Source of the DNA: a virus
IMG/VR virus record: IMGVR_UViG_3300032282_002864
Span: 1-23,872 of that record
Length of the DNA: 23,872 bases
Reading direction: 5' to 3' (one strand)
The position numbers were made by a program, and so were the translations under genes. Numbering within the stretch: the stretch's first letter is position 1; each line of letters starts with the position of its first letter. Below, in pieces: positions 1,987-17,830 of this stretch. The notes under the pieces are model-generated. The model made no database searches. It saw only the letters and a list, made by a program, of their open reading frames with translations, and was not told where the DNA came from.

Positions 1987-3906
1987 ATGATTTACTCAAT
2001 TGATTTTGAAACCCGCAGTTTTGCTGATCTACCCGAGATAGGGCTAGATAAATACGCAAACTGTTTATCAACAGAAGTGCTGTGTATTGCGTTCGGTACC
2101 ACACCAGAAACCGTCAAGGTCAAAGCACCACAAAACCCCAACACAAATGAATTATGGCCATTGATGCAACATGTATCAAAAGGTGGCAAGATTGCGGCAT
2201 GGAACGCCATGTTCGAGTACGCCATCTGGAACTGCGTCTGTGTGCCTAAGTACGGCTGGCCTCCGCTTAAACTGGAGCAGTGCATAGACACTATGGCAAT
2301 TGCTGCCAGTAATAACATCCCTCAGAACTTGGACGATGCAGGTCAGTTTATGGATGCCAAATATCAAAAAGACCCCATGGGCAAAAAGCTGATTCAAAAG
2401 CTATGCAAACCCAACAAAAAGGGTCAGTTTAATAATGACCCAGAATTGATGTCCCAGCTGTTTGAATATTGTGCCCAAGACGTACGCACAGAAATGGCTA
2501 TAGGAAGCGTTTTAAGGGGTCTTACAGACACCGAACAGGAGGTTTGGTACCTTACCCAACGGATCAATCTAAGAGGCGTTCCTGTGGACTATAATGAGCT
2601 CCATAACGCTGTCCTTGCTGTGACAAGGGCGCAAGATGCCCTAGACAATGAATTGGTTGCACTAACTGGGTGCAAGCCATCTGAGAGGGCTAAACTGCTG
2701 GGTTGGCTCAATGCCCAAGGTGCCGATATGGCAAACATGACTGCTGAGACAGTGGTTGCCAAACTGGCAGATCCATTCTTAAAACCCAAGGTGCGTAGGG
2801 CATTAGAATTACGCCAAGAAGGAAGCCAAACTAGCGTGGCTAAGTACGCTAAGATGATGGAGATACAACGTGAAGGACGGATTCGGAATACATTGGTATA
2901 TCATGGCGCTAGTACTGGCCGCTGGGCGAGTCGTGGTGGGCTTAATCTACAGAATATCGCCCGTCCCACGATTGATGATGAGCAGATTGCACTCGCAATA
3001 CCATCTGTATTTATGGAGGGAGTCGGAACGATGCAACAACTTAGTTCCCTTGTCCGAAGTGCAATCGTGGCCCCACTGGGGAAAACCTTCGTTGATGTGG
3101 ATTTTAGCTCAATTGAAAACCGAGTTGGCGTCTGGTTGGCTGGGCAAACTGACAAGGTGGATTTGTTTAGACGTGGTTTGGATGAGTATAAGACGTTTGC
3201 ATCTAGCTCGCTATACAATATACCATACGAGGAAGTTACTAAGGAACAAAGACAAATAGCCAAGTCGGCTGTGCTTGGCTGTATGTTTGGTCAGGGTTCT
3301 AAAGGATTAGTGGCGTATGCCGAGGGGATGGGAGTTAAGTTGACTGAAGAACAAAGTCAAAAGGCGGTTAACGCTTATCGGACAGATTATCAAAAAGTCA
3401 AAAACTTTTGGTATCAATGTCAATCAGCCGCTATTGCTGCGATCAAGCAACCAAGCGACATGCAAGATGCCGGGCTGTTGCGTTTCATGTATGCCAAGGA
3501 TGTCTTGTGGATGAAGTTGCCCAGCGGTCGATTCATTTGCTGGCGGGATCCCAAGGTTGAGGATCAATTGACTCCATGGGGTGAAATGCGAGAGGGTGTC
3601 ACTGTGCTCAATCAAAACACTTTCACTCGTAAGTGGGGACGCAACAATTTGATTGGTAGCAGTATCTTCCAATCGGCTGTCCAAGGTACCGCTCGGGACA
3701 TGCTGGCTGAGGCTTGTTTGTTGTTGGAGAAGAATGGCTTTGAAGTTCTCAACTTGATCCATGACGAAGTCCTCATGTTGGTGGACGAGAGTCAGGCAGA
3801 AATCGCCTTAGATCGTGTAGTCAAGTTAATGACTACACCGCCTAAGTGGGCTTCAGATTTTCCGTTAGCTGCGGAAGGTTGGGTAGGAAAGCGTTATCGG
3901 AAGTGA
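1987..3906 (+). CDS. polA: Family A DNA polymerase with 3'-5' exonuclease domain
   Basis: This is the probable phage replicative polymerase, 639 residues, with no 5'-3' exonuclease domain. The N-terminal DnaQ-like proofreading domain shows Exo I (Asp6, Glu8), an Exo II-like NAMFE (Asn73, Glu77) and Exo III YCAQD (Tyr161, Asp165). The polymerase domain shows motif A VDFSSIE with catalytic Asp372 and Glu377. Motif B runs from Arg422 and Lys426 to Leu430 and Phe434. Motif C is HDE at 592-594. By spacing, Leu430 corresponds to E. coli Phe762 and Phe434 to Tyr766. Exo II has Glu where Asp is commoner. The ATG is well supported by AGGAG six bases upstream. The gene converges on the minus-strand operon, with six bases between the two stop codons. 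Confidence 0.96.
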   Translation: MIYSIDFETRSFADLPEIGLDKYANCLSTEVLCIAFGTTPETVKVKAPQNPNTNELWPLMQHVSKGGKIAAWNAMFEYAIWNCVCVPKYGWPPLKLEQCIDTMAIAASNNIPQNLDDAGQFMDAKYQKDPMGKKLIQKLCKPNKKGQFNNDPELMSQLFEYCAQDVRTEMAIGSVLRGLTDTEQEVWYLTQRINLRGVPVDYNELHNAVLAVTRAQDALDNELVALTGCKPSERAKLLGWLNAQGADMANMTAETVVAKLADPFLKPKVRRALELRQEGSQTSVAKYAKMMEIQREGRIRNTLVYHGASTGRWASRGGLNLQNIARPTIDDEQIALAIPSVFMEGVGTMQQLSSLVRSAIVAPLGKTFVDVDFSSIENRVGVWLAGQTDKVDLFRRGLDEYKTFASSSLYNIPYEEVTKEQRQIAKSAVLGCMFGQGSKGLVAYAEGMGVKLTEEQSQKAVNAYRTDYQKVKNFWYQCQSAAIAAIKQPSDMQDAGLLRFMYAKDVLWMKLPSGRFICWRDPKVEDQLTPWGEMREGVTVLNQNTFTRKWGRNNLIGSSIFQSAVQGTARDMLAEACLLLEKNGFEVLNLIHDEVLMLVDESQAEIALDRVVKLMTTPPKWASDFPLAAEGWVGKRYRK

Positions 3907-3912
3907 TTGCTA

Positions 3913-6900
3913 TTAGGGATTTTCGTGAGGCCAGAAAATCCCTTCTTGCATTACTCGTTCAATAACAGCATTACGAGCCACTGGTGAATAGTTGGTTAAG
4001 CCGTAATTTCGTGGGAAACCTTCCATATCTGTTACTATAGATTGTCTAGCATCCATATCACCTTCGTATAATCTTCTTAAAAATATCACATCGTATAAAT
4101 TACGAACTGCTTCACTGGCAGTTTCATAAGCGCGTTGCCTAATTGCAGTAACTTGATCAAACTCACCAGCGTTTTCTGGCTCCATTTCACGCACAGCATT
4201 GACTAAATCATTTTCAGATGGGTGCCAAGGAGATTCTGGAATACTGATTTCGTTAAATGGATCTGGATGAGATTGTATTGCTTTTTCAAAATCAGCGTTA
4301 GTTGGCAATTTTTCCATTGGGTGTCTTTCAAACCAACTAGCCATAATATTTAACATATTGGTAATCTGTGGTTCTGTAAATTCATCGACCCAACCGTTTG
4401 GACCTTTATCAGCTAATTGTCCTAAAGCGGAAACTAACTGCTCACGATATTTACCATTGTGATCAAGCAACATATCGGCTAACTTGCGATGAACATCAAG
4501 TGGTACTTGACCCTCTGGTTTTCTATCACCAAACAAGATGTCTAAATTTTGAACATAATCATCTTTTAGATTATCTTGTAAATACAAAGACTCTGGATCT
4601 TTTATTAAAACGCTATAAACTTCTTCCCGAAGTGTTTGCTTATCCCAATCGCTTAATTTCTTTGGTGGCTCGGCAGATAAATCTACGCCATAATCAGTTG
4701 CTAATTGAGCAAATTGATCAGTGGTAAAGAACCTTGGAAGCAATCTTTCATCATCTGCTTTTTTGAAAAACTCTTCAACAGTAGGTGAATACCAATGAGC
4801 GCGTTCATCTGTCATTTTACCAATCGAATTGTAATGATTATCTAAGTCGTGTACTTCTTTTAAATGACTAAGTTCACGAACATCCGTTAAATTGTCAGCA
4901 TTTTTATTAAGCCATTCAACCATTTGCGGAACATAAGTTGCATCTACATCACCGTTGTTTGCGCCTTTAAGTTGTTGAACAGATTTTTTAATAGGAGCTT
5001 GTCTTTCGGCTAATAAATTAGTAATTTCGGGATACAATTGAATTGCATTTTCAATAGCTTTTGCTTTTCCAAAAGTAGCCATATTACCAAAAAATTCAAT
5101 AGCTGCTTCGGGGTTATTATCTTCTAAATAAATACCGATTGTATGAACTTTATTGGAATCACTTAATACTTTTGGTTTATCAATTTTTAATTCAAGTGTA
5201 GCTTGCGATACACCATTGGGATCTTTCAAACTAGCAATTTCAATTTGACCATCTTTAAGGCGACGCAAGTAACCGTATTTGTCAACTTCTACTTTGCCAC
5301 GAGGAGGTTTGCCAGTATGTGGCACCAACCATGGACCATGACCAGGGTAATCCTGTGTAGCATGACAACCAGAACCGACACATTGATTTAAGTCGATGGT
5401 AATTTGACCTAAATCACGAGCAGTCATATTTTCATCAGCGTTTGCCATTTCTGGCGTGATGATAGTCATCTTAGAACCATCAGAAAATGCCATGTCTGTC
5501 GGCATTGCGGCAGCACGTTTAGGAATCCATTCTGCTGCACCTTGTTTACTTAATTGTGCTGCTTTAAACTCAGCCATTTTATCTTTAATCATTTGGCGAG
5601 TTACTGTAGCAGGTGTCACATTAGATAACTTATTAGGATCTAAATTACCAGCTAACAAATCTTGAAATACTTGTTTTCTGATTTGATTAAATCCAGTTTC
5701 TTCATCTGGCTTAGTTAAAAAGTCTGTAATAAGTGCTTTTCTATCTAATTTTTCTGAGACTGGATATCCTTCTTTTGCTGTAAATGAATATCTACCCTTC
5801 GGATACAATTGAGCATCCAAAACATTTTCATACTGTAATCCCTCTGGAGTGGTAGCTGTTATTTTTCCAATAGGTGTATTTTCTAAAACTTTAACTTTGT
5901 CCTCATCAAGACCATAATTTGTTAAGGCTTTAATAAAATCTTCTCTTCGCTCTTGCCCTGTTCTTTCACGATAATCTGGAACTGGACGACTTAATCCAAA
6001 TATTTCATGAACTGGCATGCCACTTTCGTTAACCGCTTGCAACAAAGGATCTGTTGCTAAACCAGTACCCATTTGATTTGTAATGTATTTTTGATACGGA
6101 CCCATTACCCATGCGTTATAAGCTGGTAATGCTTGTTCAATTTCAGATGCTGTATACAACGGTTTTCCACCAGCCGTTTCATCAACTTCTATGTTGTAAT
6201 TTTCGGCAAATTGATTAGCTGCTTCTTTACGAAGCTGTCGCATCTGATCTAAATCTATTGGCGGAGAACCAAACTCTTTATATGGGGCTAAATAATTAAC
6301 CCAAAAATCTTCCCATTTATGCAATAATTCACGATTGTCTATTGCTCTAGGATAATGTTTTTCTAATTGTTGTTGAAAAACAGCCACAGGATCATCATAT
6401 TGTACTGATGATAAATGTTTACCAAGCTCACCTTGTTCTGACAACGGCATCGTCGCACCCAAATTGGTTGGCCAGTTGCCACCCTTTGGTTTGACAGCGT
6501 AGGATGCTACGGGGACGCTAAATTGATTTGGCATACCAGGGATATTAAATCCGCCAGTTTCCATTACTTGATTGTAAATTGGCTCTATAAAGGGTTTGGC
6601 TGTTTCAGCAGCACCAGCAGCGCGAGATCCTAAAGTGGGATACTCACGGGTAATGCCAGCTTGGGCGTTTGTATAATCAGATGGGAAGTTGCGGATGTCT
6701 TCGATAGCAGTTTTACCAGCAACACGAAGGTCGTCTGGAGTAAACCGAACACGAGTATTCCACAACTCCGGCAATGGTCCAGTGCGTTCTCCAATATCTG
6801 CAATAGTATTGGAAATATCTTTGCCTAATTGTGTTGGGGGAGTGTATTGCAAAGCTTGCATTGCTTTAGCTGTATCAGCGTTAAAGTTTGCAGTTTGGGG

Positions 6901-7224
6901 ATTGACGGCTTGATTGCCAGCTCCATATAAAGCGGAGCCAGCTATTTGAAATGGCGAGGCAAGAGCGGGTATTACACCTTGAGCTAAAGATGCTCCTGGC
7001 ATGCGCTCCATAAGATATTTAACCAACCCCGTGGGGTCAGATAAATAATTGGTTTTTGCTTGGGAATTAAGTTGTTGCTGGCGTAGTGCTTCTTCGCTAT
7101 TAAGCTGAGCACGCATTTTAGCTATGTTGGCTTCATTACCAGCTTGAGGTTGATTGTAACCTGGTGGTAAAGCACTTAAACTATCCGCAACATAGGCACC
7201 AGTGACGGGATCAATATACGGCAT
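3913..7224 (-). CDS. Large phage protein (1103 aa) with a PcfJ-like segment, probably virion-associated
   Basis: Last gene of the long minus-strand operon, one base after the 300-residue gene, with no clear Shine-Dalgarno, so it is probably translationally coupled. I do not recognise the whole protein. The N-terminus begins YIDPVTGAYV, and DPxTG recurs in the preceding protein. At residues 614-680 there is a pattern typical of PcfJ-like proteins: QCVG, a further Cys and His, a tyrosine-rich stretch, then IASLKD, a G and an ATLEL strand. The rest is polar and mostly helical by composition, with no signal peptide or obvious membrane segment. Its place after the other large putative ejection proteins suggests a virion component delivered into the cell. 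A cytoplasmic role is also possible. Confidence 0.7.
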   Translation of the reverse strand: MPYIDPVTGAYVADSLSALPPGYNQPQAGNEANIAKMRAQLNSEEALRQQQLNSQAKTNYLSDPTGLVKYLMERMPGASLAQGVIPALASPFQIAGSALYGAGNQAVNPQTANFNADTAKAMQALQYTPPTQLGKDISNTIADIGERTGPLPELWNTRVRFTPDDLRVAGKTAIEDIRNFPSDYTNAQAGITREYPTLGSRAAGAAETAKPFIEPIYNQVMETGGFNIPGMPNQFSVPVASYAVKPKGGNWPTNLGATMPLSEQGELGKHLSSVQYDDPVAVFQQQLEKHYPRAIDNRELLHKWEDFWVNYLAPYKEFGSPPIDLDQMRQLRKEAANQFAENYNIEVDETAGGKPLYTASEIEQALPAYNAWVMGPYQKYITNQMGTGLATDPLLQAVNESGMPVHEIFGLSRPVPDYRERTGQERREDFIKALTNYGLDEDKVKVLENTPIGKITATTPEGLQYENVLDAQLYPKGRYSFTAKEGYPVSEKLDRKALITDFLTKPDEETGFNQIRKQVFQDLLAGNLDPNKLSNVTPATVTRQMIKDKMAEFKAAQLSKQGAAEWIPKRAAAMPTDMAFSDGSKMTIITPEMANADENMTARDLGQITIDLNQCVGSGCHATQDYPGHGPWLVPHTGKPPRGKVEVDKYGYLRRLKDGQIEIASLKDPNGVSQATLELKIDKPKVLSDSNKVHTIGIYLEDNNPEAAIEFFGNMATFGKAKAIENAIQLYPEITNLLAERQAPIKKSVQQLKGANNGDVDATYVPQMVEWLNKNADNLTDVRELSHLKEVHDLDNHYNSIGKMTDERAHWYSPTVEEFFKKADDERLLPRFFTTDQFAQLATDYGVDLSAEPPKKLSDWDKQTLREEVYSVLIKDPESLYLQDNLKDDYVQNLDILFGDRKPEGQVPLDVHRKLADMLLDHNGKYREQLVSALGQLADKGPNGWVDEFTEPQITNMLNIMASWFERHPMEKLPTNADFEKAIQSHPDPFNEISIPESPWHPSENDLVNAVREMEPENAGEFDQVTAIRQRAYETASEAVRNLYDVIFLRRLYEGDMDARQSIVTDMEGFPRNYGLTNYSPVARNAVIERVMQEGIFWPHENP
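3915..3943. terminator. Shared hairpin between convergent polymerase and structural operons
   Basis: AGGGATTTTC (3915-3924) and GAAAATCCCT (3934-3943) form a perfect 10-bp stem with a 9-nt loop, sited exactly where the two transcription units meet. It lies just after the polymerase stop and overlaps the last codons and stop of the minus-strand gene. Neither side has a good U-tract (TCTTGCATT on plus, AATAGCAATCA on minus). It may therefore be a bidirectional terminator or an mRNA 3'-end stabiliser rather than a classic strong terminator. Confidence 0.6.
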
Positions 7225-7225
7225 G

Positions 7226-8128
7226 TTATCTATCTAAAGAAATTAAACCACCTGTTTTAACAGCGATTTGACCGCCAGCTGCTTTCTTTTGTAATTTATC
7301 TTGCTCTTCTAGGTGGCGTTGATACATGCCAATAGGAATAGAAAGGCCAGCACCAGCGATGTTTGACCATGGGCTGGCTGGAGTTGGAGCAATAGTGGCG
7401 GCGTTACTAACAACACCAGCAACATCTAATAACTCACGAGCGGGATTGCCTTCTTTAAAATGATTCCATAGGCGTACTAAATTTTCGCCACCTTCCCATA
7501 AACCACCCACAGTACCAGCACCTCTTGCAACGGGAGAGCTTGCAGCACTCTTAACCACTTGCATAGCTCGTTGGGTAGGGGTCAATGGAGGAGGCGCAGC
7601 AACGGGAGGTGCGGCTGGAGCACCAGCACTGCTTAAATCCAAACCTTCTAGAGCTTGTGGTGGAACATTAATACCCATTGGGGTAGAGGCTTTAAAACCA
7701 GCACCACCACGCACAGGATCAAATTGAGATGTTAACTTAGCTTGGTCTAACGCTTTGATACGAGCTTCGTTTTGAGCACGCTCAGCAGCTTGTTCCATTG
7801 TGGTTGCGTTGTACCCGGTTTGTCTTGCACGACCAGTAGCGCCTGTTTCGGGATCAATAGTGCCTTGGATTTGACGCTCTAAAATAGTTCTATTTGGAGG
7901 TGCAATCTTCTCAGCAATACGATTAGTAATTTCTTTGGTAATGTTAGAACCCAAAACACCCTTAAGTGTTTTAGCACCAGCGATCGCTGGAATACCCAAT
8001 GCTTCAGCAGCAATACCGCCAGTAACAGGATCTACTTGTTCAGTTTTGGCTTTATTAAGATGAAACCGTTGGTACTCGTGAAGATCGCTTTCGGGTACTG
8101 GTTCGTATTCTACTTTTTGATCGCTCAT
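7226..8128 (-). CDS. Unrecognised phage protein (300 aa), probable minor virion protein
   Basis: The start ATG overlaps the stop of the 581-residue gene as ATGA, showing tight coupling. The N-terminal part is polar with two DPxTG motifs. Residues about 165-185 form a Pro/Ala-rich linker. The region after about 185 contains small-residue stretches that could form amphipathic helices. The last 20 residues carry KKAAGGQIAVKTGGLI, a Gly-Gly motif related to ones in neighbouring proteins. No catalytic motif is visible. The context among large low-complexity proteins downstream of the tail genes suggests an internal or ejected virion protein; this is inference. Confidence 0.65.
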   Translation of the reverse strand: MSDQKVEYEPVPESDLHEYQRFHLNKAKTEQVDPVTGGIAAEALGIPAIAGAKTLKGVLGSNITKEITNRIAEKIAPPNRTILERQIQGTIDPETGATGRARQTGYNATTMEQAAERAQNEARIKALDQAKLTSQFDPVRGGAGFKASTPMGINVPPQALEGLDLSSAGAPAAPPVAAPPPLTPTQRAMQVVKSAASSPVARGAGTVGGLWEGGENLVRLWNHFKEGNPARELLDVAGVVSNAATIAPTPASPWSNIAGAGLSIPIGMYQRHLEEQDKLQKKAAGGQIAVKTGGLISLDR

Positions 8129-9870
8129 TGTTTCACTCTCATAGGTTGACCATTTTGATAAATAATTGGGTTGCCATTCTTATCAGTGTCTTTAGTGCCA
8201 TCTTTAGGCTTGTTCATTACTTTGCTAATTTTATTAGATAGCTCTATATCGTATTTAGTAATAATACCTTGTACTTTAGGAGTATTCATAAAGGCATATG
8301 GGTCAGGATTTTTTAAAGTTGTTTTGTATTTATCCCACTCTTTTGCCAATTCTTTATTTCTATCGTGAACAATTTGCACAGTCAATGCTTGTGCAATGTT
8401 TTGCTCTGGAGGATACTTAGAACTTAAACCTTTAGCTGCTTGAGAAATGGTAGTTAACTGAGCACCCATTTTAGAACCTGTACCACCAAACTGTTCTTTC
8501 TCGTATGCAATACCAAGCTGTTTAGCTAGGTTGTCCAAACGAGAGCGTTTTGTCATAGCATCTTCACCAGCAAAAAATTCTTTCATGCCAGTTAAAATAC
8601 CAGTTTCTCGTTGACCAGTTTCACCTTGAGTATCTTCAGTACGACCAGTGAGTTTCATTAAGAAACCAACGGGGTCTTTCTTGTAGCCATAACCAAAGTA
8701 TTCTGGATGCTCAGTAGCCATATCAATAATTTCTTGGGCTTGTTGGTTAGTAGTTGGGCCAAAGGATTGGTTTGAAATGTCAGCAATAAACTTACCAGCT
8801 GCAATACGCTCTTCTTGTAAAGATTTTAACTGGGCTTCATTAAGTTGTTGTTCTTGTTGCAAACCGCTTTGTTGACCACGACCAGCAAATTCTGGATTAA
8901 AAGAATAATCAATTGCTGGTGCTGGGGATACAGTTACTGTACCTTTTACTGGAGGTGCAGCTTGTGCAGTACCACTACCAGTTAATGCACTAATAATGTT
9001 TTCTGCCATACTGCCACGAGGAGCGGCTTGCGCCATTGGGGCAGGAACTGGAGCTTGATCCATTGCCATCGGAGCTGGCATTGGCATCATTGGAGCATCT
9101 TGTGGTTGTGCACCATCGGCCATGTAACGAATTGAGCCACCCATGGCTTTTTTCTGAATCGGTTGAATTTTTGGATCTTGCAACACGCCTCTGAACTGCG
9201 GAGGAACAATTTGTCTATCTTGCCAGTTTTGCAGATCTTGTTTAGTAATTTTAGCTGAGAAGTTACGGTACTGACCAGCGGTATCATAACCACTAACAGT
9301 AGCATCAACCACGTCCATGCCTTTAAATTCTGCACCAGCTCGAGTGTGAATATCCGACAAGGCTTTAAATGCTGCTTTAAAACCTGCTAAGTCGTTTGTA
9401 TCAGCGTAGTTCTTTAAATTCTGGTAATCGTAAACAGAAAGTGGAACACCATTGTAGGTATAACCACTTGATTGAGCACCAGCTTGCGGTTGAGTGCCAG
9501 CTTGAGGTTGACCGCCAGCTTGAGGCATTGTTCCTGTTTGACCAAAACCAGAACGCATTGCGCCAAGTTGTTGTCTCATTATGTCAGCTTGTGCTGTGAG
9601 CATACCGATGTTTTGTAATTCTTGTGCTTCTTTAGCACGCTTTTCCCCAAGCATAGCAACACCAGTTTCTGGATGGTACGCTGTACGAGCAACCATCTCA
9701 TCTAGATTGCCTTGAAGTGCTTTCCAAGGGCTACTTAATTCAGCAGCACGACGTTGTAAGTTTTGTAAAATTTCAGCTGAATTAGGAGACGCAGCAATAG
9801 TCTCAGCATTGTATTCTGCTGTTGATTTTGGTCTTGGTTGTAATGCGTCTAACGGTTGTGTATCTGCCAT
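8125..9870 (-). CDS. Unrecognised phage protein (581 aa) with Gln/Gly/Ala-rich linkers, probable virion or ejection protein
   Basis: The start is supported by AGGA six bases upstream of the ATG. The protein has an N-terminal helical region (about 1-110) and a short PQAG-type imperfect repeat around 120-135. A compact segment with many aromatics follows at about 140-230. The motif MGGSIRYMADG is at 243-253, followed by a Pro/Met/Ala-rich linker. A charged, helix-rich C-terminal region runs from about 330 to 560. No enzyme motif is visible. It sits between the 322- and 300-residue genes of the same operon and ends in an ATGA overlap. Position and composition resemble internal virion proteins of podoviruses, but homology is not shown. 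Confidence 0.68.
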   Translation of the reverse strand: MADTQPLDALQPRPKSTAEYNAETIAASPNSAEILQNLQRRAAELSSPWKALQGNLDEMVARTAYHPETGVAMLGEKRAKEAQELQNIGMLTAQADIMRQQLGAMRSGFGQTGTMPQAGGQPQAGTQPQAGAQSSGYTYNGVPLSVYDYQNLKNYADTNDLAGFKAAFKALSDIHTRAGAEFKGMDVVDATVSGYDTAGQYRNFSAKITKQDLQNWQDRQIVPPQFRGVLQDPKIQPIQKKAMGGSIRYMADGAQPQDAPMMPMPAPMAMDQAPVPAPMAQAAPRGSMAENIISALTGSGTAQAAPPVKGTVTVSPAPAIDYSFNPEFAGRGQQSGLQQEQQLNEAQLKSLQEERIAAGKFIADISNQSFGPTTNQQAQEIIDMATEHPEYFGYGYKKDPVGFLMKLTGRTEDTQGETGQRETGILTGMKEFFAGEDAMTKRSRLDNLAKQLGIAYEKEQFGGTGSKMGAQLTTISQAAKGLSSKYPPEQNIAQALTVQIVHDRNKELAKEWDKYKTTLKNPDPYAFMNTPKVQGIITKYDIELSNKISKVMNKPKDGTKDTDKNGNPIIYQNGQPMRVKQ

Positions 9871-9879
9871 AATTTATCC

Positions 9880-10848
9880 TTAGTATATCGCTTGACCGCT
9901 GTTATCCACTTGGTTATAGCCTTGATCAGCGCCAGTAGTGGTGCCATAATCAGTAGGAACTGTAGAGTTTGCAACCGAGCCATCGGGGTTGTATGTAATA
10001 CCGCCACCACCGCTACTGCTACCACCAAATATACTATTAAACGTTGGTAATATACCGGCGGGGATATAACCAGAAGTGCCTGGTGTTCCAGCACCTTTAC
10101 CAAATATGCTATTTAATAAGTTAGTACCAATTGTCGGTACACCAGCCAGTGTACTAACCATCTGCAACGGAGACAATTGATTTTGCTGAGATACAGTCGC
10201 TGGAACATTAATTGCGTTTATTAAGTTTGCGTAGTTTGTAGCACCTTGGAATGGAGCGTTCATTTGTGCCGCACCAGTGGTTAATCCAGAAGTAATGCCT
10301 TGTGCACCCACATTGCCTAATGCACCACCAGCGGTAGCACCAGTTTGTTGGTTTTGTAATGCCGCTTGCATTTGCTGAGCTTGTAAGGTAGCTAGTGCAT
10401 TTGATTTAGCGGTATCGACTGCAGTTTGAGCACGCAAACCACCAAAACCGCCAGTACCAATACCAGTTGCTTGAGTTGGAGCAATGGCTGTTGGCAATAG
10501 TTGATTTAATTGATTTGTTTGTGCTTGAAATAAACCACCTAAAGCGGTGTTTACATTTGGGGTTACTTGACCAGTAGCTTGGTTTACATTCCAAGGGTTA
10601 GCTGCACCTTGCGCAATGGTGTTTAAACTGCCTTGTGCTTGAGTAAATGGATTAGCCGCACCTTGAAGGGTATTAACAGCACCTTGAGCAGTGGTGTTGG
10701 CAAACGAAGGTGCGCCACCCAAAGCTGTACTAGCTTGATTAGCAACATTTTGTTGCGCGGCATCGTACCAAGACGGTAGCGTTGTCTGTACCTGATTGGT
10801 ACTAGACAATATATTATTTAAACCTGAAGAGGATGTTGTTCCAGCCAT
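9880..10848 (-). CDS. Gln/Ala/Gly-rich phage protein (322 aa), probable internal virion/DNA-transfer protein
   Basis: The start codon overlaps the stop of the 1084-residue gene by one base (TAATG). The protein is strongly enriched in Gln, Ala, Asn, Thr and Gly, with a few charged residues. It has repeated short helical stretches such as NTALGGLFQAQTNQL near residues 95-115 and a GFGGLRAQTAVDTA segment near 135-150. The C-terminus carries a Gly/Ser run and a Tyr-rich tail. Such Gln/Ala-rich proteins in this position are common in uncultured podoviruses and are often thought to enter the host with the DNA. That role is inferred from composition and neighbours; I see no defining domain. Confidence 0.65.
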   Translation of the reverse strand: MAGTTSSSGLNNILSSTNQVQTTLPSWYDAAQQNVANQASTALGGAPSFANTTAQGAVNTLQGAANPFTQAQGSLNTIAQGAANPWNVNQATGQVTPNVNTALGGLFQAQTNQLNQLLPTAIAPTQATGIGTGGFGGLRAQTAVDTAKSNALATLQAQQMQAALQNQQTGATAGGALGNVGAQGITSGLTTGAAQMNAPFQGATNYANLINAINVPATVSQQNQLSPLQMVSTLAGVPTIGTNLLNSIFGKGAGTPGTSGYIPAGILPTFNSIFGGSSSGGGGITYNPDGSVANSTVPTDYGTTTGADQGYNQVDNSGQAIY

Positions 10849-13800
10849 TATTTTTTCACCTTACGTTTTGCTTCTAATAAATAACCCAATGGACCTTTGC
10901 TATCTGAAGGCAGATGCTTGGCGTCATGTTTTTGTTTATGTGCTCTAATGGTTTTTAAGAATGAATCTAACATTTTAGCACCGCTATCATTACTACCGTT
11001 GCCCAAAGAAGCTACTACATCTGCGGGTATTACAAATTCGCCGTCTGATAACATCGCTGGGATGCTATCGCTTGTTCCAGTCCCTGGACCACGCACATGC
11101 GTGTTTTGCATCGAACCAAGGCCGCCTTCGCTATAGAATTGTGGATTAAAGCCTTGAGAAATAGCACCACCTTCAGCTTTTCCAACAATTGGATATAAAG
11201 GTATGCCACCTAAACCAAACAAATTGGAATGTTGTGTTTGTTTACCACGCATCAATACTGGTTTTAAAGACAAATCATCTTCATTGGAACTTCCACCACC
11301 AGCAAGATGCATTATACCACCAGTGGCGGCGTTTTCTATTTCGGCTAGTGCATTTGGATCTGGAACTGGGGTAGCATAAGTAACTGTTGGTACATTAAAA
11401 CTACCTAAAGGAGAAGCAATTTGCGATCCTTTTACAAAAGTGCCTTTTGGTGCTGTTGGTGTTGTGGTTGCTCCAGAAGACGCTGAGTTACCACCACCCA
11501 TACCATATAAAGCCGAAGCCAATCCAGCGGCAGTTAAACCAGCTGCAGCAGCACCAGTGCCCGTACCAGCTGTTGTGCCCGTTCCAGTACCAGCTGTTGT
11601 GCCCGTTCCAGTACCAGCTGTTGTGCCCGTTCCAGCTGTTGTGCCCGTTCCAGCTGTTGTGCCCGTTCCAGCTGTTGTGCCCGTTCCAGCTGTTGTGCCC
11701 GTTCCAGCTGTTGTGCCCGTACCAGCTGTTGTGCCCGTTGTTGGTAAACCGCCAGCAGTGCCCATGCCAGTTCCAGTGGTGCCAGCACCACCAGTCCCTG
11801 TTGAGGTGCCAGTTGTTGCTGTACTTGTACCTAAACCACCAGTGGCTGTTCCAGCACCAGATGATCCAGCGGTGCCTTGATTTGCTATTAAATTAGAAAG
11901 TACATCCGTTGGTGTAACGGGTGTTGTTATTGGTGTGTTTTCAATTGCCGCAAGTCTTTGGTCATATTCGCTTTGCGTGATTTCACCATTTTGTAATTGG
12001 GTTTCTAAATGATTGGCTGCATCAATTTGAGATTGAGACAATGAATCACCTATTCTATCACCAGTTACTACAACGCCTCCAGAGAGATTTGTACCCCCTG
12101 GAGTAACTACTTTAGGAGTTAAATCTACTTTAGGTAATTCAATATTACCAACACCCCCACTTGTTCCATAAGTAATATCAGATGTAGCTGGTCCAGAAGC
12201 AACTTGCGTACCACCAGTAGTTGGCTGATCTGGATTAGCAAAAGCATTAGTAAACTGATTATAGTATTGATCAGCTAAACTGGCTGTTGGTGCGGCCAAT
12301 GACAATTCTGGCGCAAGATAATTAGTTGGCAGTTTACCAGAAGCAATGTCATTTAAACCACTTACATAGTTAGATGCAGTTGTTGTTGTGTTAGTTAGCT
12401 GATCTTGTGCTTGCGAATATTGATTAGTTTGATCAGTTAGTGCTTTATTTAAGTTAGTTAATTGATTCTGTAACGGTTGAACATTAGTGCTATACAAATC
12501 GTTTACTTGCTTACTACTTGCTTCCAAAGTTTGACGCATTGGAGCAATATCAGAATTGTAAAGATTCTCTAAACTGGTATTAGCTGTTTTAAATTCTTGA
12601 GAGGCAGTGTTATATTGTGGAATTAAATTGTTTAATTTATTTGCGGTATCATTGGCTGCATTAAACGCCGTAGTGTTACTACTATCAGCCTCATAAGCAG
12701 CTTTGTTAGTGTCATAATTAGACTGTAATGTTTGTACTTGTGAATACAAATCATTTGCATTTTTTTGCAAATCAACTACATTTTGGTATGCTGGATTATA
12801 TTTATTATTTATAGCATCTTGATACGCACTTTGATTTGTTTTGTAATCGTTGTATGCTGTTTTAAATTCATCACCAGCTAAATAATTATCTAGTGCTGTT
12901 TTTGTGGTGTTGTATTGATCATAAGTACCTTTAACACTATCAGCTTGGCTTAATAACGCAGTTCTTTGCTGATCAATGGTTGGCATTAAATCAGCAACTT
13001 TATTAGATAAATCGCTTGATGCGGCAGTTAAATACTGCTTAGCCAAATCACCACTAACGGGTTGATCCAGATTAGCGCCTAGACTAATATTTGCTGCTCC
13101 GCCAGCTAAGCCGCTTCCTGTTGCACTCCAAGGCAATCCCGTTGCTGGGTTAACATCACCTAATGAAGCTGTTGGTGCCACTAATGAATTCCAAGCATCT
13201 TTACCAGCACCAATAGCATTACCTAATAATGTTCCACCAGCGCCACTAACAGCGCCCGTTAACGGATCACCACCTTTAATAGCAGAGCCAATAGCACCCG
13301 TTCCAGCGTTGGTAACAATAGGATTGACATATTGATTGGCTTGATTTCCAATAGCACCAAGACCTGTGCTTAGTGCAGAATTTTGTAGTAATGTTGCTAC
13401 ATCTTGCCCTCTAAGAGCACCAGTACCAGCAGACGATAATGCTTTGGCAACATATGGATTGACGCCAGCGGATTCTAATCCACTTAATGCACCGCCAGTT
13501 AGACCACCATAAAACGCACCAGACAATGCTCCTTTTAGGGGATCTTGACCTTTAATGGCAGACATTGTTCCACCTAAACCAGCACCATATAAAGATCCAG
13601 TTCCCGCGGCAGCTAATGCTGATTGAAGTGCTGTTGGGGCTGCAAAACCACCAATACCAATTGTGCCACCTGTTCCGATTCCAATTCCAGCACCAGCTCC
13701 AGTACCAGCGGCGCCAGTTAAACCAACACCCGTACCAGCGGCACTACCAGCACCAGTACCAATACTACCAGCTACTTCTGGAGCTAAATTACCTACAGCA

Positions 13801-14102
13801 CTTGCACCACCGTACCCAGCCTCTATTGCACCAGCGCCCGTTCCGGTCAAAGCAGAACCGCCTTCAATCGCTGGTAAGGCTTCTGCTAAATAAGGTGCTG
13901 CGTATGGGGCAACAACAGCCAATGCTACAGCACCAACTGTTGCCCAACCACCAGGGATGACATCGTTAACAGCTTTGTCAACAGATGCACTAACGTCACC
14001 GATAGCGGGACCCGGGTCAATAGATGCTAAAGCATCACCTGCCCCACTCCAATCAATTGGGTCTGTGATGTCAAATCCACCTCCGCCTCCACCACCACAC
14101 AT
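10848..14102 (-). CDS. Large repeat-containing virion protein (1084 aa): glycine-zipper N-terminus, coiled-coil centre, Thr/Gly repeat, conserved C-terminal module
   Basis: The protein starts two bases after the acetyltransferase stop. It begins MCGGGGGGGF and continues as a Gly/Ala-rich region (to about 330) containing hydrophobic and glycine-zipper stretches. Two copies of an SAIKGxDPLxGAxSGA motif begin near residues 181 and 273. Residues about 385-585 are Asn/Gln/Thr-rich and look like a long coiled coil. Residues about 700-720 resemble a SHOCT-like helix pair (NGEITQSEYDQRL). A GTTAGT-type repeat covers about 789-847. The C-terminal part has the motifs GGIMHLAGGG and GGAISQGF. A segment at about 1001-1035 (GPGTGTSDSIPAMLSDGEFV) recurs in many phage structural proteins. 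It may span or pierce the membrane during DNA entry; this is inferred. Confidence 0.72.
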   Translation of the reverse strand: MCGGGGGGGFDITDPIDWSGAGDALASIDPGPAIGDVSASVDKAVNDVIPGGWATVGAVALAVVAPYAAPYLAEALPAIEGGSALTGTGAGAIEAGYGGASAVGNLAPEVAGSIGTGAGSAAGTGVGLTGAAGTGAGAGIGIGTGGTIGIGGFAAPTALQSALAAAGTGSLYGAGLGGTMSAIKGQDPLKGALSGAFYGGLTGGALSGLESAGVNPYVAKALSSAGTGALRGQDVATLLQNSALSTGLGAIGNQANQYVNPIVTNAGTGAIGSAIKGGDPLTGAVSGAGGTLLGNAIGAGKDAWNSLVAPTASLGDVNPATGLPWSATGSGLAGGAANISLGANLDQPVSGDLAKQYLTAASSDLSNKVADLMPTIDQQRTALLSQADSVKGTYDQYNTTKTALDNYLAGDEFKTAYNDYKTNQSAYQDAINNKYNPAYQNVVDLQKNANDLYSQVQTLQSNYDTNKAAYEADSSNTTAFNAANDTANKLNNLIPQYNTASQEFKTANTSLENLYNSDIAPMRQTLEASSKQVNDLYSTNVQPLQNQLTNLNKALTDQTNQYSQAQDQLTNTTTTASNYVSGLNDIASGKLPTNYLAPELSLAAPTASLADQYYNQFTNAFANPDQPTTGGTQVASGPATSDITYGTSGGVGNIELPKVDLTPKVVTPGGTNLSGGVVVTGDRIGDSLSQSQIDAANHLETQLQNGEITQSEYDQRLAAIENTPITTPVTPTDVLSNLIANQGTAGSSGAGTATGGLGTSTATTGTSTGTGGAGTTGTGMGTAGGLPTTGTTAGTGTTAGTGTTAGTGTTAGTGTTAGTGTTAGTGTTAGTGTGTTAGTGTGTTAGTGTGAAAAGLTAAGLASALYGMGGGNSASSGATTTPTAPKGTFVKGSQIASPLGSFNVPTVTYATPVPDPNALAEIENAATGGIMHLAGGGSSNEDDLSLKPVLMRGKQTQHSNLFGLGGIPLYPIVGKAEGGAISQGFNPQFYSEGGLGSMQNTHVRGPGTGTSDSIPAMLSDGEFVIPADVVASLGNGSNDSGAKMLDSFLKTIRAHKQKHDAKHLPSDSKGPLGYLLEAKRKVKK
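11563..11736 (-). repeat. In-frame tandem repeat: seven 18-bp and two 24-bp units
   Basis: On the plus strand the unit is GTTCCAGCTGTTGTGCCC, repeated nine times head to tail. Two units, at 11581-11604 and 11605-11628, carry an extra six bases (CCAGTA-type insertion). The first (11563-11580) and last (11719-11736) have GTACC instead of GTTCC. All lengths are multiples of six bases, so the reading frame is kept, and the protein gains Gly-Thr-Thr-Ala-Gly-Thr-like units. The near-identity of the units suggests recent slippage or expansion. Confidence 0.97.
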
Positions 14103-14104
14103 AA

Positions 14105-14539
14105 TTAGAGCCTTTTCATACTGTTAAAACCACCGATTTTATAACCATTGTGTATGTAGAATTTTTTCATCTCTTCAATTTTTCCACCAACACTATGTCC
14201 CATAAAGATCTCTTTTGCTCCATTTTCTTTTGCCCAATTCTCAATCGCTTTCAACAGTTTAAAAGCAGTTGAACCTCCTCTATGTTCTGGCAAAATATAA
14301 AATCCAACATCACTTGCTTTTTCATATTCTGAAAAGAAAAATGGACTAATAACTGCTCCAACAAAGCCAATGCATTTTTCATTTTTAAATGCTAAAAATG
14401 CGGCACTTTTTGGATAATCCATCAATGCTTGAATTTTTCTTCTAGATGGTGGTGCAAAAGAAAAAACGCTTTCAACAACCATTTGCTCAATCAAAGCAAA
14501 AAGTTGTTCAAAATGTTCTTGTTTAGCTCTAATAATCAT
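14105..14539 (-). CDS. GNAT-family N-acetyltransferase
   Basis: Predicted 144-residue acetyl-CoA-dependent acetyltransferase; the substrate is unknown. The fold's landmarks are present. The N-terminal helix is followed by strand 4 (SDVGFYILPEHRGG) and the acetyl-CoA loop RGGSTA at 87-92. A helix (AFKLLKAIENWAKENG) and the C-terminal FYIHNGYKIGG strand come next. An earlier in-frame ATG exists at 14602. The start at 14539 is preferred because it overlaps the cupin stop as ATGA and begins directly with the typical MIIRAKQ strand. It is the last of three coupled AT-rich genes between tail genes. It could modify a virion protein, a host protein or a small molecule such as a toxin or sugar. Confidence 0.85.
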   Translation of the reverse strand: MIIRAKQEHFEQLFALIEQMVVESVFSFAPPSRRKIQALMDYPKSAAFLAFKNEKCIGFVGAVISPFFFSEYEKASDVGFYILPEHRGGSTAFKLLKAIENWAKENGAKEIFMGHSVGGKIEEMKKFYIHNGYKIGGFNSMKRL

Positions 14540-15081
14540 ATATACTCTAAACTTGCAGCATCTTGTTTTGTCAAATTTGATTTTATATAAGCTTCTCCAC
14601 ATTTAACAGTAGACAAATGATGCTCGCCCATAACTATACCTATATAGTCGGAAGCAACGCAATGTGGTTTAACCCCGTTTAACCAATGTTGAATTGACAT
14701 AAAAACTCCACCAGAATCACCTATTATTGCGCCATGAGTTGTTTCTGGTTTAACTCTCATTCGGACTCCTCTACAAAAAGAAGTTCCATCAATATTTGGA
14801 GTTGTCATTGCTTTTTCAGAAGTTGTATATTTACCATTTATTGTAAATTGAATTTCGCCTCCTAAATATAGTTCAAAACTATCCACATTAGGATGAGTGT
14901 GTTCTGGTATTATATAATTTGGAGGAACAATGAACAATTGAACTTGGAACGGATCTTCCCTATACCAAATTACAGAAATAACATCTTCAACTTTATGAAC
15001 TGCATGAAAAAGTGGTATTCTTCCTATTAAAGAAGAATCTTTTAAAAAACTTTCGCAAAAAATTTCTAATTGATCACTCAT
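14536..15081 (-). CDS. Cupin-fold protein
   Basis: A 181-residue protein with a single cupin-like core. The first motif PEHTHPNVDSFELYLGGE (residues 59-76) supplies His61, His63 and Glu70 (or Asp67) as probable metal ligands. The second motif VKPETTHGA supplies His116. Cupins include dioxygenases, isomerases, epimerases and non-enzymatic binding proteins, so the reaction cannot be named. The start at 15081 is chosen over 15096 because it forms an ATGA overlap with the preceding stop; the gene also ends in an ATGA overlap with the acetyltransferase. Such coupling suggests that the three products act together or need matched amounts. Sampled base composition is AT-rich (17 G+C in 14521-14580). 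Confidence 0.78.
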   Translation of the reverse strand: MSDQLEIFCESFLKDSSLIGRIPLFHAVHKVEDVISVIWYREDPFQVQLFIVPPNYIIPEHTHPNVDSFELYLGGEIQFTINGKYTTSEKAMTTPNIDGTSFCRGVRMRVKPETTHGAIIGDSGGVFMSIQHWLNGVKPHCVASDYIGIVMGEHHLSTVKCGEAYIKSNLTKQDAASLEYI

Positions 15082-15453: not shown

Positions 15454-15714
15454 TTAACGACTTGGGCCATTGACAATTTGACTAAAGCTATGAGCCCAAT
15501 CTTGCCAGTTATCAAAACTCTCTGGAGCAGATACGGGGTAAGCTGCAAAAGTAGCCAAATTCATAATTTGAGCTGCTCCCGCTTGCCAGTTTGTATCTAC
15601 AGTAATGCCAATCGGTTCAGAACCAAAATACTGAATTAAATTACCATTCCAATCTTCCCAAGTAGTATATTCTGGGGAAAACGGAAAGTGTTGCGTTATA
15701 CTAGGGACGCTCAT
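15454..15714 (-). CDS. Small Trp-rich phage protein (86 aa)
   Basis: An 86-residue protein overlapping the end of the nozzle-like gene by 14 bases. ATG at 15714 (MSVPSIT) is preferred over an upstream TTG at 15720. It contains two similar segments, TTWEDWNG near the N-terminus and DNWQDWAHSF near the C-terminus, suggesting a small internal duplication around a WxxW core. The short acidic-aromatic composition and the place after tail genes suggest a minor tail or assembly protein. I know of similar unnamed proteins in phages but no assigned function. Confidence 0.7.
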   Translation of the reverse strand: MSVPSITQHFPFSPEYTTWEDWNGNLIQYFGSEPIGITVDTNWQAGAAQIMNLATFAAYPVSAPESFDNWQDWAHSFSQIVNGPSR

Positions 15715-17830
15715 CACCAAACTCAGCAGTAATTAAGTTACGACCCATTTCAAAGTTACCGTTAATATCATTGGATTCAAACTTCAAACGAACCAAACGA
15801 TGCTCAACACGAAGATCAATTTTACCAGTATCTTTAGTAAAATAGTACGGACCAGAAGTTTCTTCGTATGGACCAGAAGCAAACTTACGACCCAAAATAG
15901 TCATCGACATGGTGCCAGATTGTACGAAGTTAGGCTCAACGCGGCGTAAATGCATACGACGATTAATACCTTGAATGGCATTTTGACTTGGATTACCAGT
16001 AAGCCAACTAATATCGCAAGTGGTAACGCTGGAGTATACCGCTAATTCGTTAGCTATTGTTACTTCATTCAAATTGTGTTCGTGTTGCCAAATTGAATAT
16101 CCGCCAGAAGTTGGATATACCAAAGTGCCTGGTGCTGTTGATGATGTTATAATGGTAGATGCAGTAATTAAAGTAGCGTTGTATGTAAAGTCATATACGC
16201 TAGAAACAATATTGTACACTTTTTTTGGATTGGCTAAATCGGTCGAAAGTGTAACACTATCGCCTGGACTAATAATATTTGAAACATCACCAGCTAAATA
16301 AATTTGTTTGTTAGTTGGTGCTGGAGCACCCTCTGGAGTTGCTATTGATACAACGGGATTACTAACGCTTGTATTGTATTCCCAACCAGCCCAAATTGGG
16401 GTTGGGAATAACTCTGTAGTATAACCACAAGAGCGACGAGCACCAATAGCAGAACCAGCATCGTACCATAATTTATCTTTTACATTGTAGATAATAGCAT
16501 CAGTACATTCTGTGGCACGACCACGGGGATAAAAGAACCAAATCTCGTTGTATCTTGGAACTTTGGTTGCCCATACTTTTTGACGCTGTTCATAATTGAT
16601 ATTATCAAACAACCAGTTTACATTCTTATCGTTTGGCAATACGGCAACTTGACCGTTGTAAACATAGTATCTATCAACGCCCATCCAGAAATACAGACCG
16701 TCCATCTCAACCACAGCGTTAGAAGACATGATAGAGATTTGGCTAGAAACAATGTCATAATTCCAGTAAAACTGAGTAGCTTGGGAATTGAATGAAACAC
16801 GAATAAGTGAATCTGTAGCCCAAAATAAACCAGATGGTGAATTAGTACCACCACGCACTGTCATGCCTTTTACAATCTTGGAAGACGATACATTAATTTG
16901 GTTAGCTAATGGGCCGTTCCAATCGTATAGTGTTTGTTCAGAATAAATATTGCTAACATTATTGTTTGCAATAAATCCATGTGAACCGTATACAAAAATA
17001 AATGGATACAGAACGCAAACACCACCGTCTACAGAAATAGGCTTATATGTTGGATTTTGACCAGCACTATCAGATAAACCAGATAAATAAAACTGATTGT
17101 TTGCATCTGGTGTAACCGATCCTGTTAATACTTGGGATGTAACGCCGCTGTCAATATTTTGTAAATTTTTACCAGGGTGAGCTAGTATATTTAATTGACC
17201 ACCAGATGGGCTAAATTGAGCATCAAATTGCCAATTATTACGAGTATCCGCTGAAAAAATAGTATCGTTTAACCAAATTTGACTAATGGGTCCAGCTGGA
17301 GCGTTTGGCGTAAAGTCAATTGTTGTTTCTGAAGGAGGCCCCGCGGCGTAAGTAGAACCAGTAATGGTGTAAACAACAGGCGTACCTGTTTGCTCAATAA
17401 TAAATTCAGTGCCAACAGCAAAAGTTGTAGTGGCATTACCAGGAACAACTATTTGAGATACTGAGACAGTGGTTGTTACATAGGCCGTTACTGAACCAGG
17501 TAACATATTTTCCACATAAGGTCCGCTACCAGCACCGTAAGTTGTGCCTGTAGTAAATACATCTAAACCGTCTGCATTTCCTGCAAAAACATAATTAACA
17601 CCGTTATACGGTACATTCATCATGCCACGATAAATACCGTTAAAACTTGTAAATAGTGTGGAATACCCACCTATTTTTTTTGGTTCACCACGCTGAAAAC
17701 GACACCATACACCGTCGGTGTATTGGTCATTTTGAAACTGAGTACCGTCGCGCTTGATTCCAGCCGGAATTACTAGGCTGTAAATTGAAGTATATTGCGA
17801 GGTATCCTGTTGCTGATTATCAGCCGCCAT
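15701..17830 (-). CDS. Large tail protein, nozzle/hub-like (P22 gp10 / T7 gp12-type)
   Basis: A 709-residue structural protein. Its opening (IPAGIKRDGTQF, then DGVWCRF and KIGGY) resembles P22 gp10-like tail hub proteins. The middle has the propeller-like pattern of such nozzle proteins: GLFWATDSLI, then GLYFWMGVDRYYVYNG and ARRSCGYTT. Two related beta modules appear inserted at about 120-175 and 505-565. The gene follows adaptor-like genes and abuts the 420-residue gene (TAA directly followed by ATG). The product probably forms the lower tail tube through which DNA leaves the virion. The assignment rests on motif recognition and gene order; P22-type and T7-type cannot be told apart from this alone. 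Confidence 0.72.
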   Translation of the reverse strand: MAADNQQQDTSQYTSIYSLVIPAGIKRDGTQFQNDQYTDGVWCRFQRGEPKKIGGYSTLFTSFNGIYRGMMNVPYNGVNYVFAGNADGLDVFTTGTTYGAGSGPYVENMLPGSVTAYVTTTVSVSQIVVPGNATTTFAVGTEFIIEQTGTPVVYTITGSTYAAGPPSETTIDFTPNAPAGPISQIWLNDTIFSADTRNNWQFDAQFSPSGGQLNILAHPGKNLQNIDSGVTSQVLTGSVTPDANNQFYLSGLSDSAGQNPTYKPISVDGGVCVLYPFIFVYGSHGFIANNNVSNIYSEQTLYDWNGPLANQINVSSSKIVKGMTVRGGTNSPSGLFWATDSLIRVSFNSQATQFYWNYDIVSSQISIMSSNAVVEMDGLYFWMGVDRYYVYNGQVAVLPNDKNVNWLFDNINYEQRQKVWATKVPRYNEIWFFYPRGRATECTDAIIYNVKDKLWYDAGSAIGARRSCGYTTELFPTPIWAGWEYNTSVSNPVVSIATPEGAPAPTNKQIYLAGDVSNIISPGDSVTLSTDLANPKKVYNIVSSVYDFTYNATLITASTIITSSTAPGTLVYPTSGGYSIWQHEHNLNEVTIANELAVYSSVTTCDISWLTGNPSQNAIQGINRRMHLRRVEPNFVQSGTMSMTILGRKFASGPYEETSGPYYFTKDTGKIDLRVEHRLVRLKFESNDINGNFEMGRNLITAEFGDERP

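Follow-up and report, generated by a model that had tools for sequence, protein, structure and literature searches.

Why an uncultured phage should end its block of structural genes with a large protein resembling PcfJ, a domain of plasmids and phages to which, to our knowledge, no function has been assigned, is the question raised by the 23,872-nt stretch of viral DNA analysed here (the window). The protein is 1103 aa long, and we read it as a late, probably virion-associated protein that carries a diverged PcfJ-type domain. Our preferred reading, to which we give a probability of roughly 45%, goes further and takes it to be an ejection-type virion protein whose PcfJ/GNAT-like module is derived and may be enzymatically silent.

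Motifs of the terminal protein and their link to PcfJ

The earlier note on this DNA had singled out residues 614-680 (window 5185-5385, a start two bases away from the one it gave), and QCVGSGCH, IASLKD and ATLEL were found where it had placed them (Table 1). Its description of a Tyr-rich stretch did not hold up, with 3 Tyr in the 67 residues, about the whole-protein level of 4%. The segment is conserved among relatives in viral contigs and therefore above chance, and its motifs belong to a larger domain in which two further blocks, DGSKM and QLKGANN, had been overlooked. The second of these, about 70 residues further downstream, surfaced in the alignment of relatives. Along the 1103 aa, Kyte-Doolittle means over 19 residues did not exceed 1.17, which indicates no strong transmembrane segment.

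Table 1. Features of the 1103-aa protein and of neighbouring genes, in window coordinates.
Feature	Position	Strand	Remarks
Family-A DNA polymerase	1987..3906	+	Faces the 1103-aa gene
1103-aa protein, ORF	3913..7224	-	Terminal gene of the minus-strand structural block
Mostly helical N-module, residues 246-556	5557..6489	-	Begins in KPKGGNW (245-251); AlphaFold model
Diverged PcfJ-like core, residues ~576-790	4855..5499	-	GNAT-like predicted fold
DGSKM (582-586)	5467..5481	-	Aligned with the viral PcfJ D-x-G-x-x-W block
QCVGSGCH (614-621)	5362..5385	-	Equivalent of HCVGGY; signature His to Gln
First insert with PHTG, about residues 621-650	5275..5364	-	H636 invariant in 26/26 rows
IASLKD (663-668)	5221..5238	-	Equivalent of IYSLRD; signature Arg to Lys
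ATLEL (675-679)	5188..5202	-	Equivalent of VTIEV
Second insert, helices, about residues 689-741	5002..5160	-	
QLKGANN (751-757)	4954..4974	-	Equivalent of QIKGKGN; carries most of the profile signal
1084-aa protein	10848..14102	-	Lies between the stabilization-type and PcfJ-like genes
709-aa homologue of a protein annotated 'phage stabilization protein'	15701..17830	-	

Direct family searches were negative. The Pfam PcfJ model (PF14284) gave no match in the window protein at E ≤ 10, and PHROGs and NCBIfam (E ≤ 1) gave neither a PcfJ match nor a significant domain. At the same Pfam threshold there was no match in any of the eight members of the narrow window family (A1) or in the 32 other records with window-type relatives (9+17+6, near-copies included), and PF14284 also had no match in the downstream copy of L026 described below. 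Viral PcfJ records in the same scans were matched in 3/3 and 15/18 cases, the three misses being the variants L065-L067, which have His-Ser-Val instead of His-Cys-Val; this variant of PcfJ occurs in L065-L068 and L079. Scans of viral contigs returned nine relatives of the whole 1103-aa protein, plus more distant ones that align to the core. Using tblastn against phage records, we found no match to the protein, only a Vibrio phage at E 2 for the core alone, and nothing for the L026 downstream copy. Sequence searches of the PDB with the window family and with viral PcfJ gave best E-values of 0.11 or worse, which we read as unrelated, and none of 32 candidate stretches in bacterial genome contigs was confirmed as a window-type relative.

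Profile-profile comparison with hhalign gave a different picture. On the window side we used families of 8 rows (A1), 15 rows (A3, without L020 and L027) and 26 rows (without L112, L113, L115, L123, L125, L127 and L129, which are near-copies or fragments); L007 and L009, near-copies of L006 and L008, were left out of the relatives' alignment. The viral PcfJ side was represented by nine cores that all match PF14284 at E ≤ 0.01 (A2), and by 28 rows drawn from 42 PcfJ loci (A6), 25 of which come from PF14284-matched proteins or records, with L065-L067 as the exceptions. The 8-row family matched the nine cores at 94.8% (E 5.3e-8; 94.6% without the L026 and L028 rows) and the 28 rows at 97.0% (E 1.1e-10), and the latter figure rose to 98.3% with 15 rows and 98.7% (E 1.9e-16) with 26. 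Against the nine cores, 100 column shuffles each reached maximum scores of 23.1 (8 rows) and 24.1 (15 rows) and reversed alignments 15.6 and 19.1, compared with real scores of 54.4 and 79.9. Against the 28 rows, the 8-row family scored 75.4 (shuffled maximum 23.6 in 100 shuffles, reversed 12.8) and the 26-row family 115.8 (shuffled maximum 18.6 in 50 shuffles). The HMM comparison that the earlier note had proposed was thus negative with the PF14284 model itself and far above shuffles when profiles were set against viral PcfJ, and the resemblance it had claimed survives as a remote one (94.8-98.7% profile-profile, same predicted element order), not as a Pfam match.

The signal is unevenly distributed along the protein. 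When the family alignment was divided into ten segments, the one covering residues 493-707 scored 24.4 (7%) against viral PcfJ, close to what the best shuffles reached, the two bearing QLKGANN (605-818 and 708-933) scored 62.0 and 52.8 (96.2% and 94.5%), and the remaining seven scored 10.3-15.8. The stretch first noted, 614-680, is by itself weak evidence for PcfJ. The helical region ahead of the core matched its viral PcfJ counterpart independently (95.0%, E 3.7e-8), with a score of 62.9 against a shuffled maximum of 23.8 and 22.0 for the reversed alignment. The aligned part covers about residues 367-560 and the KPKGGNW stretch lies outside it; a K-x-x-G-G-N or EKGGN start was present at the helical module in 12 of the 18 viral PcfJ proteins checked.

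Plasmid PcfJ was represented by three sequences, from 3/5 regions (L090 was without the searched motif and L094 without annotation). Against these three the narrow window families reached 0.6% and 1.3%, below or near shuffles, and the 26-row family 37% (E 3.5e-4, score 31.9, shuffled maximum 15.2), while viral PcfJ (the 28 rows) matched the same three at 98.8%. Since the window ties weakly to plasmid PcfJ and strongly to viral PcfJ, its membership rests on the viral intermediates, and a remote homology of the window domain to PcfJ through them is well supported by the profile comparisons.

Two of the viral contigs carry two PcfJ-type modules within one ORF (L026, 384-5927, 1848 aa; L028, 1696-7242, 1849 aa), and L027 is a near-copy of L026. 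The upstream module passes Pfam PcfJ at 41.5 and 41.4 bits (cut-off 25), and the downstream one is related to the window core by tblastn (35% identity, E about 2e-16). Each module sits behind a K-x-K-G-G stretch, and the pair looks like an internal duplication.

Predicted fold of the core

The structure prediction that had also been proposed pointed the same way, as the window core shares its predicted element order with the viral PcfJ model. Using AlphaFold, we modelled window 4735-6507 (residues 240-830; from a 19-row alignment, A4) with a mean pLDDT of 82.1 and a pTM of 0.65, and the viral PcfJ core of L050 (from the 28 rows) with a pLDDT of 92.2 and a pTM of 0.84. In element order, which is all that was compared, both cores run strand, strand, helix, strand, strand, helical insert, strand, helix, strand, and the L050 model has three additional strands ahead of the long helix. 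The two models are not independent, because A4 holds five PcfJ-type rows with L050 among them; this alignment also places some PcfJ-type rows differently from hhalign.

Searching known structures with VIA-align, we obtained the GNAT fold in 49 of the 50 matches listed for the window model, the last being a phage capsid protein, and in all 50 listed for the PcfJ model. The best matches reached Z 7.2 (135 aligned, rmsd 3.5) for the window and Z 8.2 (106 aligned, rmsd 3.0) for PcfJ, and a Z of about 7-8 is, according to the tool's note, what models lacking clear relatives usually reach; it can mean no more than a common arrangement. Most GNAT-fold rows are so named in their entry titles; 3i9s, 1yre and 4v36, present in both lists, and 5xxs, 4f6a and 7qf6, in the list for the PcfJ model, we take to belong to the fold as well. 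Plain Foldseek against the PDB gave no match at E ≤ 0.001 for either model, its best rows being acetyltransferases (E 0.24 for the window, 0.096 for PcfJ) in lists that also contained unrelated rows. When the PcfJ model was searched against predicted viral proteins, 15 matches had E ≤ 0.001, and 11 of these bear the name PcfJ-like.

From these models, the window domain and viral PcfJ appear to resemble GNAT acyltransferases best, which is suggestive and not proof. GNAT acyltransferases (HAT1, ESCO1, aminoglycoside acetyltransferases) are the best fold matches of both models, but sequence similarity to them is not established and the window lacks the last position of their CoA loop. The signature of this loop is [Q/R]-x-x-G-x-[G/A], and QLKGAN of the window keeps the Q and the first G but has N at the last position and so departs from it. 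Judging by element order, we infer that QxxGxxN of PcfJ would correspond to the GNAT CoA loop. A GNAT-like shape for PcfJ domains in general is borderline, resting as it does on predictions with borderline scores, and would offer a testable idea of what these domains do. Our searches for literature on PcfJ (with phage, PF14284 or conjugation) found no structure or function paper, judging by titles and abstract openings.

The strongest competing explanation, possible if not probable in our view, is that the PcfJ homology is real and the fold is not GNAT, the matches reflecting a common alpha/beta arrangement. The Foldseek result at E ≤ 0.001 and the level of the Z scores are what this explanation would predict, but both models, although built with common alignment rows and not independent, match little other than GNAT-fold entries across the PcfJ core, and the invariant QxxG closes a core strand, ahead of the next helix.

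Gene position and virion association

The placing of the 1103-aa gene as the last of the structural block, made in the earlier note, agrees with the gene order and with the facing polymerase. The two genes lie tail to tail, and a ribonucleotide reductase gene adjoins that of the polymerase. The window's structural genes are like those of MW202545 and of Caulobacter phages, 'phage stabilization protein' among them. The 1084-aa neighbour has tape-measure and SMC-type matches, which we read as coiled-coil resemblance. In P22-type phages the ejection proteins are encoded after the stabilization gene, and our ejection reading stems from the window gene following a stabilization-type gene in the same manner. 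Podovirus ejection proteins (P22 gp7/gp20/gp16, T7 gp14-16) are, like the window protein, encoded where the structural block ends and behind a stabilization-type protein; the likeness is one of gene place, not of pairwise sequence comparison. Delivery of the product with the virion, which had been raised as one option, would fit the place of the gene.

Part of the structural block appears to vary. The 300-aa and 581-aa genes (window 7226-9870, minus strand) directly precede the PcfJ-like gene, and relatives of them were not detected in L004, L005 and L017; the 322-aa gene upstream of this pair does have relatives in all three, making 7226-9870 a variable spot. Within the same block, a 165-aa protein (window 14105-14602, minus strand) matches the PHROG acetyltransferase family phrog_1249 (E 4.5e-26), so that its gene is a second acyltransferase-type gene there.

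A PcfJ domain in a structural operon had been called unexpected, and this is not what the wider set of loci indicates. Among 42 PcfJ-type loci (tblastn relatives, with near-copies and fragments counted), the order TerL-PcfJ-portal on one strand was found in 19/19 that show both neighbours; the rest have terminase only (7), portal only (8), a window-like DNA polymerase (3) or none of these (5). Of 17 further window-type loci, near-copies included, 11 are flanked by terminase and portal, two by portal only and two by terminase only, and two face a polymerase. In L051, L055 and L057, HCVGGY-type Pfam-positive proteins occupy the window gene's own slot, facing polymerases that are 70-72% identical to that of the window. 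PcfJ domains thus turn up repeatedly within clusters of virion genes in environmental phages, three of them in the window gene's slot, and the location of the window gene is not unexpected. An annotated example is WJZ48068 of the metagenome-assembled Phage DSL-LC04 (OR003939), a PcfJ-like protein within a virion gene cluster that is 36% identical to the Pfam-positive L050 core; unlike the window protein, it is 825 aa long and sits between the terminase large subunit and the portal.

We also compared the protein with polyvalent proteins, which PMC5512222 describes as injected, encoded near late genes in phages and having GNATs among their domains; the name PcfJ is absent from its main text. The likeness lies in a large multidomain protein near late phage genes, with GNATs among the domains listed there, and the window gene is likewise encoded beside virion genes. 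Some PcfJ-bearing relatives add an HExxH motif or weak similarity to ART-PolyVal. Of 34 PcfJ proteins (34 of the 42 loci, nine being open-ended ORFs), 13 have HExxH, compared with 2.8% of shuffled proteins; most of these are zincin-like, that of L061 is not, and the near relatives L026-L028 are within the count. L037 (1828-7485) and L039 (1641-7139) have two each, and L057 (1716-5663) is another carrier. The ART-PolyVal match, below cut-off, was seen in one of six PcfJ-bearing relatives scanned, the 2002-aa L067 protein (2490-8495), which has an HSVGGY-type PcfJ core, no Pfam PcfJ match, and the ART-PolyVal stretch near its C terminus. Unlike polyvalent proteins, the window protein showed no second catalytic domain in Pfam, PHROGs, NCBIfam or HExxH searches, HExxH itself being absent. 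Literature searches on ejection or injected proteins with acetyltransferases returned next to nothing at the depth of titles and abstract openings.

A late cytoplasmic role in assembly or packaging, as a head- or terminase-related factor that is not itself packaged, would suit the many relatives whose gene lies between terminase and portal. We consider it unlikely for the window protein, as in the window's group the gene is the end gene, past the stabilization-type gene and several large genes and facing the polymerase, and as the HExxH and ART-PolyVal matches of PcfJ relatives are traits of injected polyvalent proteins.

Signature residues in the window's clade

The window domain has in common with viral PcfJ (PF14284) the order of motif blocks, the predicted core order, the preceding helical module and the gene slots; it differs in having no Pfam match, Gln for His, Lys for Arg, the PHTG insert and a helical insert. 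In the 28 viral PcfJ rows the His of HCV, the Arg of SLR, the Thr, and the Gln and Gly of QxxG are all present in 28/28, and the Glu in 26/28. The window protein retains the Gln and Gly of QxxG and has Q614 and K667 in place of the signature His and Arg. Across the 26-row window-type alignment, His and Arg occur jointly in 13 rows, and the other 13 have Gln plus one of Lys, Leu, Val and Ile, with none mixed, so that position 667 is variable (K, L, V, I) within the latter. These 13 Gln rows lie together on one side of a branch supported at 100/100, in a tree that includes the trait columns and carries a long-branch warning for L111, L128, L117, L025 and L017, and being on one branch they count as one event, not 13. 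We read its direction as loss, since His and Arg are present in 28/28 viral PcfJ rows. That the two are missing jointly suggests a shared function of His and Arg that the window's clade may no longer need, and because this clade has lost residues invariant in viral PcfJ, the specific activity of the domain is doubtful in the window protein.

It is nevertheless conceivable that the domain has remained enzymatically active in this clade, with Gln and Lys as substitutes or H636 of PHTG in the place of the His, and that it modifies a host target after ejection. C615, H636 and G638 are invariant in 26/26 rows and the QxxG glycine is kept in 25/26, the core is predicted with fair confidence, and the MAFFT alignment A4 sets PHTG against the canonical HCVG. 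We consider this last alignment the less likely one, because hhalign and the predicted helix boundaries put QCVG, not PHTG, against HCVG. With both signature residues absent from 13/13 clade rows and position 667 varying, and with the VTIE Glu kept in only 6/26 rows (a loss not limited to the window's clade), an active enzyme appears quite unlikely. A candidate zinc site of C615, C620, H629 and H636 stays a guess, since C620 is kept in 13/26 rows and H629 in 18/26.

Chance resemblance of the motifs is hardly credible: the direct Pfam, PHROGs and NCBIfam searches were negative, as it would predict, but the motif blocks occur in order, the preceding module matches independently, the gene slots are common to viral PcfJ, and the controls (shuffled, reversed and from other regions) score far lower than the real comparisons, which speaks against it.

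Under the preferred reading of an ejection-type virion protein, the window gene would give a late, virion-associated multidomain protein, in which residues ~246-790 are a diverged form of a two-part unit of uncultured phages. The unit would consist of a helical module, starting with K-x-x-G-G-N in most of the phages examined, and then a PcfJ domain of GNAT-like (N-acyltransferase) predicted fold, with the invariant QxxG at the strand end where GNATs bind CoA pyrophosphate. Where a relative has kept His-Cys, SLR and QxxGxxN, the domain might pass into the cell along with the DNA and there modify, by acyl-type transfer, a target belonging to host or phage. For the window's clade this activity has probably been changed or lost, as His and Arg are gone while the fold and PHTG are conserved, and the domain could have a role within the particle or in binding. 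Within this reading, the homology, the position of the gene, the common predicted topology and the loss of residues are computed results, and GNAT-type chemistry, packaging, ejection and a changed role are inferences. A bolder version, which we regard as somewhat unlikely, is that PcfJ is an unrecognised GNAT-fold acyltransferase family in phage virion-associated multidomain proteins, and that in one clade the catalytic His/Arg pair disappeared together, turning the domain into a pseudoenzyme whose site, possibly metal-binding, centres on PHTG. The predicted fold, the candidate active-site residues, the recurrent slot in virion clusters and a natural residue-loss clade make the function of PcfJ directly testable. 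The second insert also varies across the alignment, with a spacer between its flanking motifs of 67-79 residues in 16/26 rows and 11-14 residues in the other 10.
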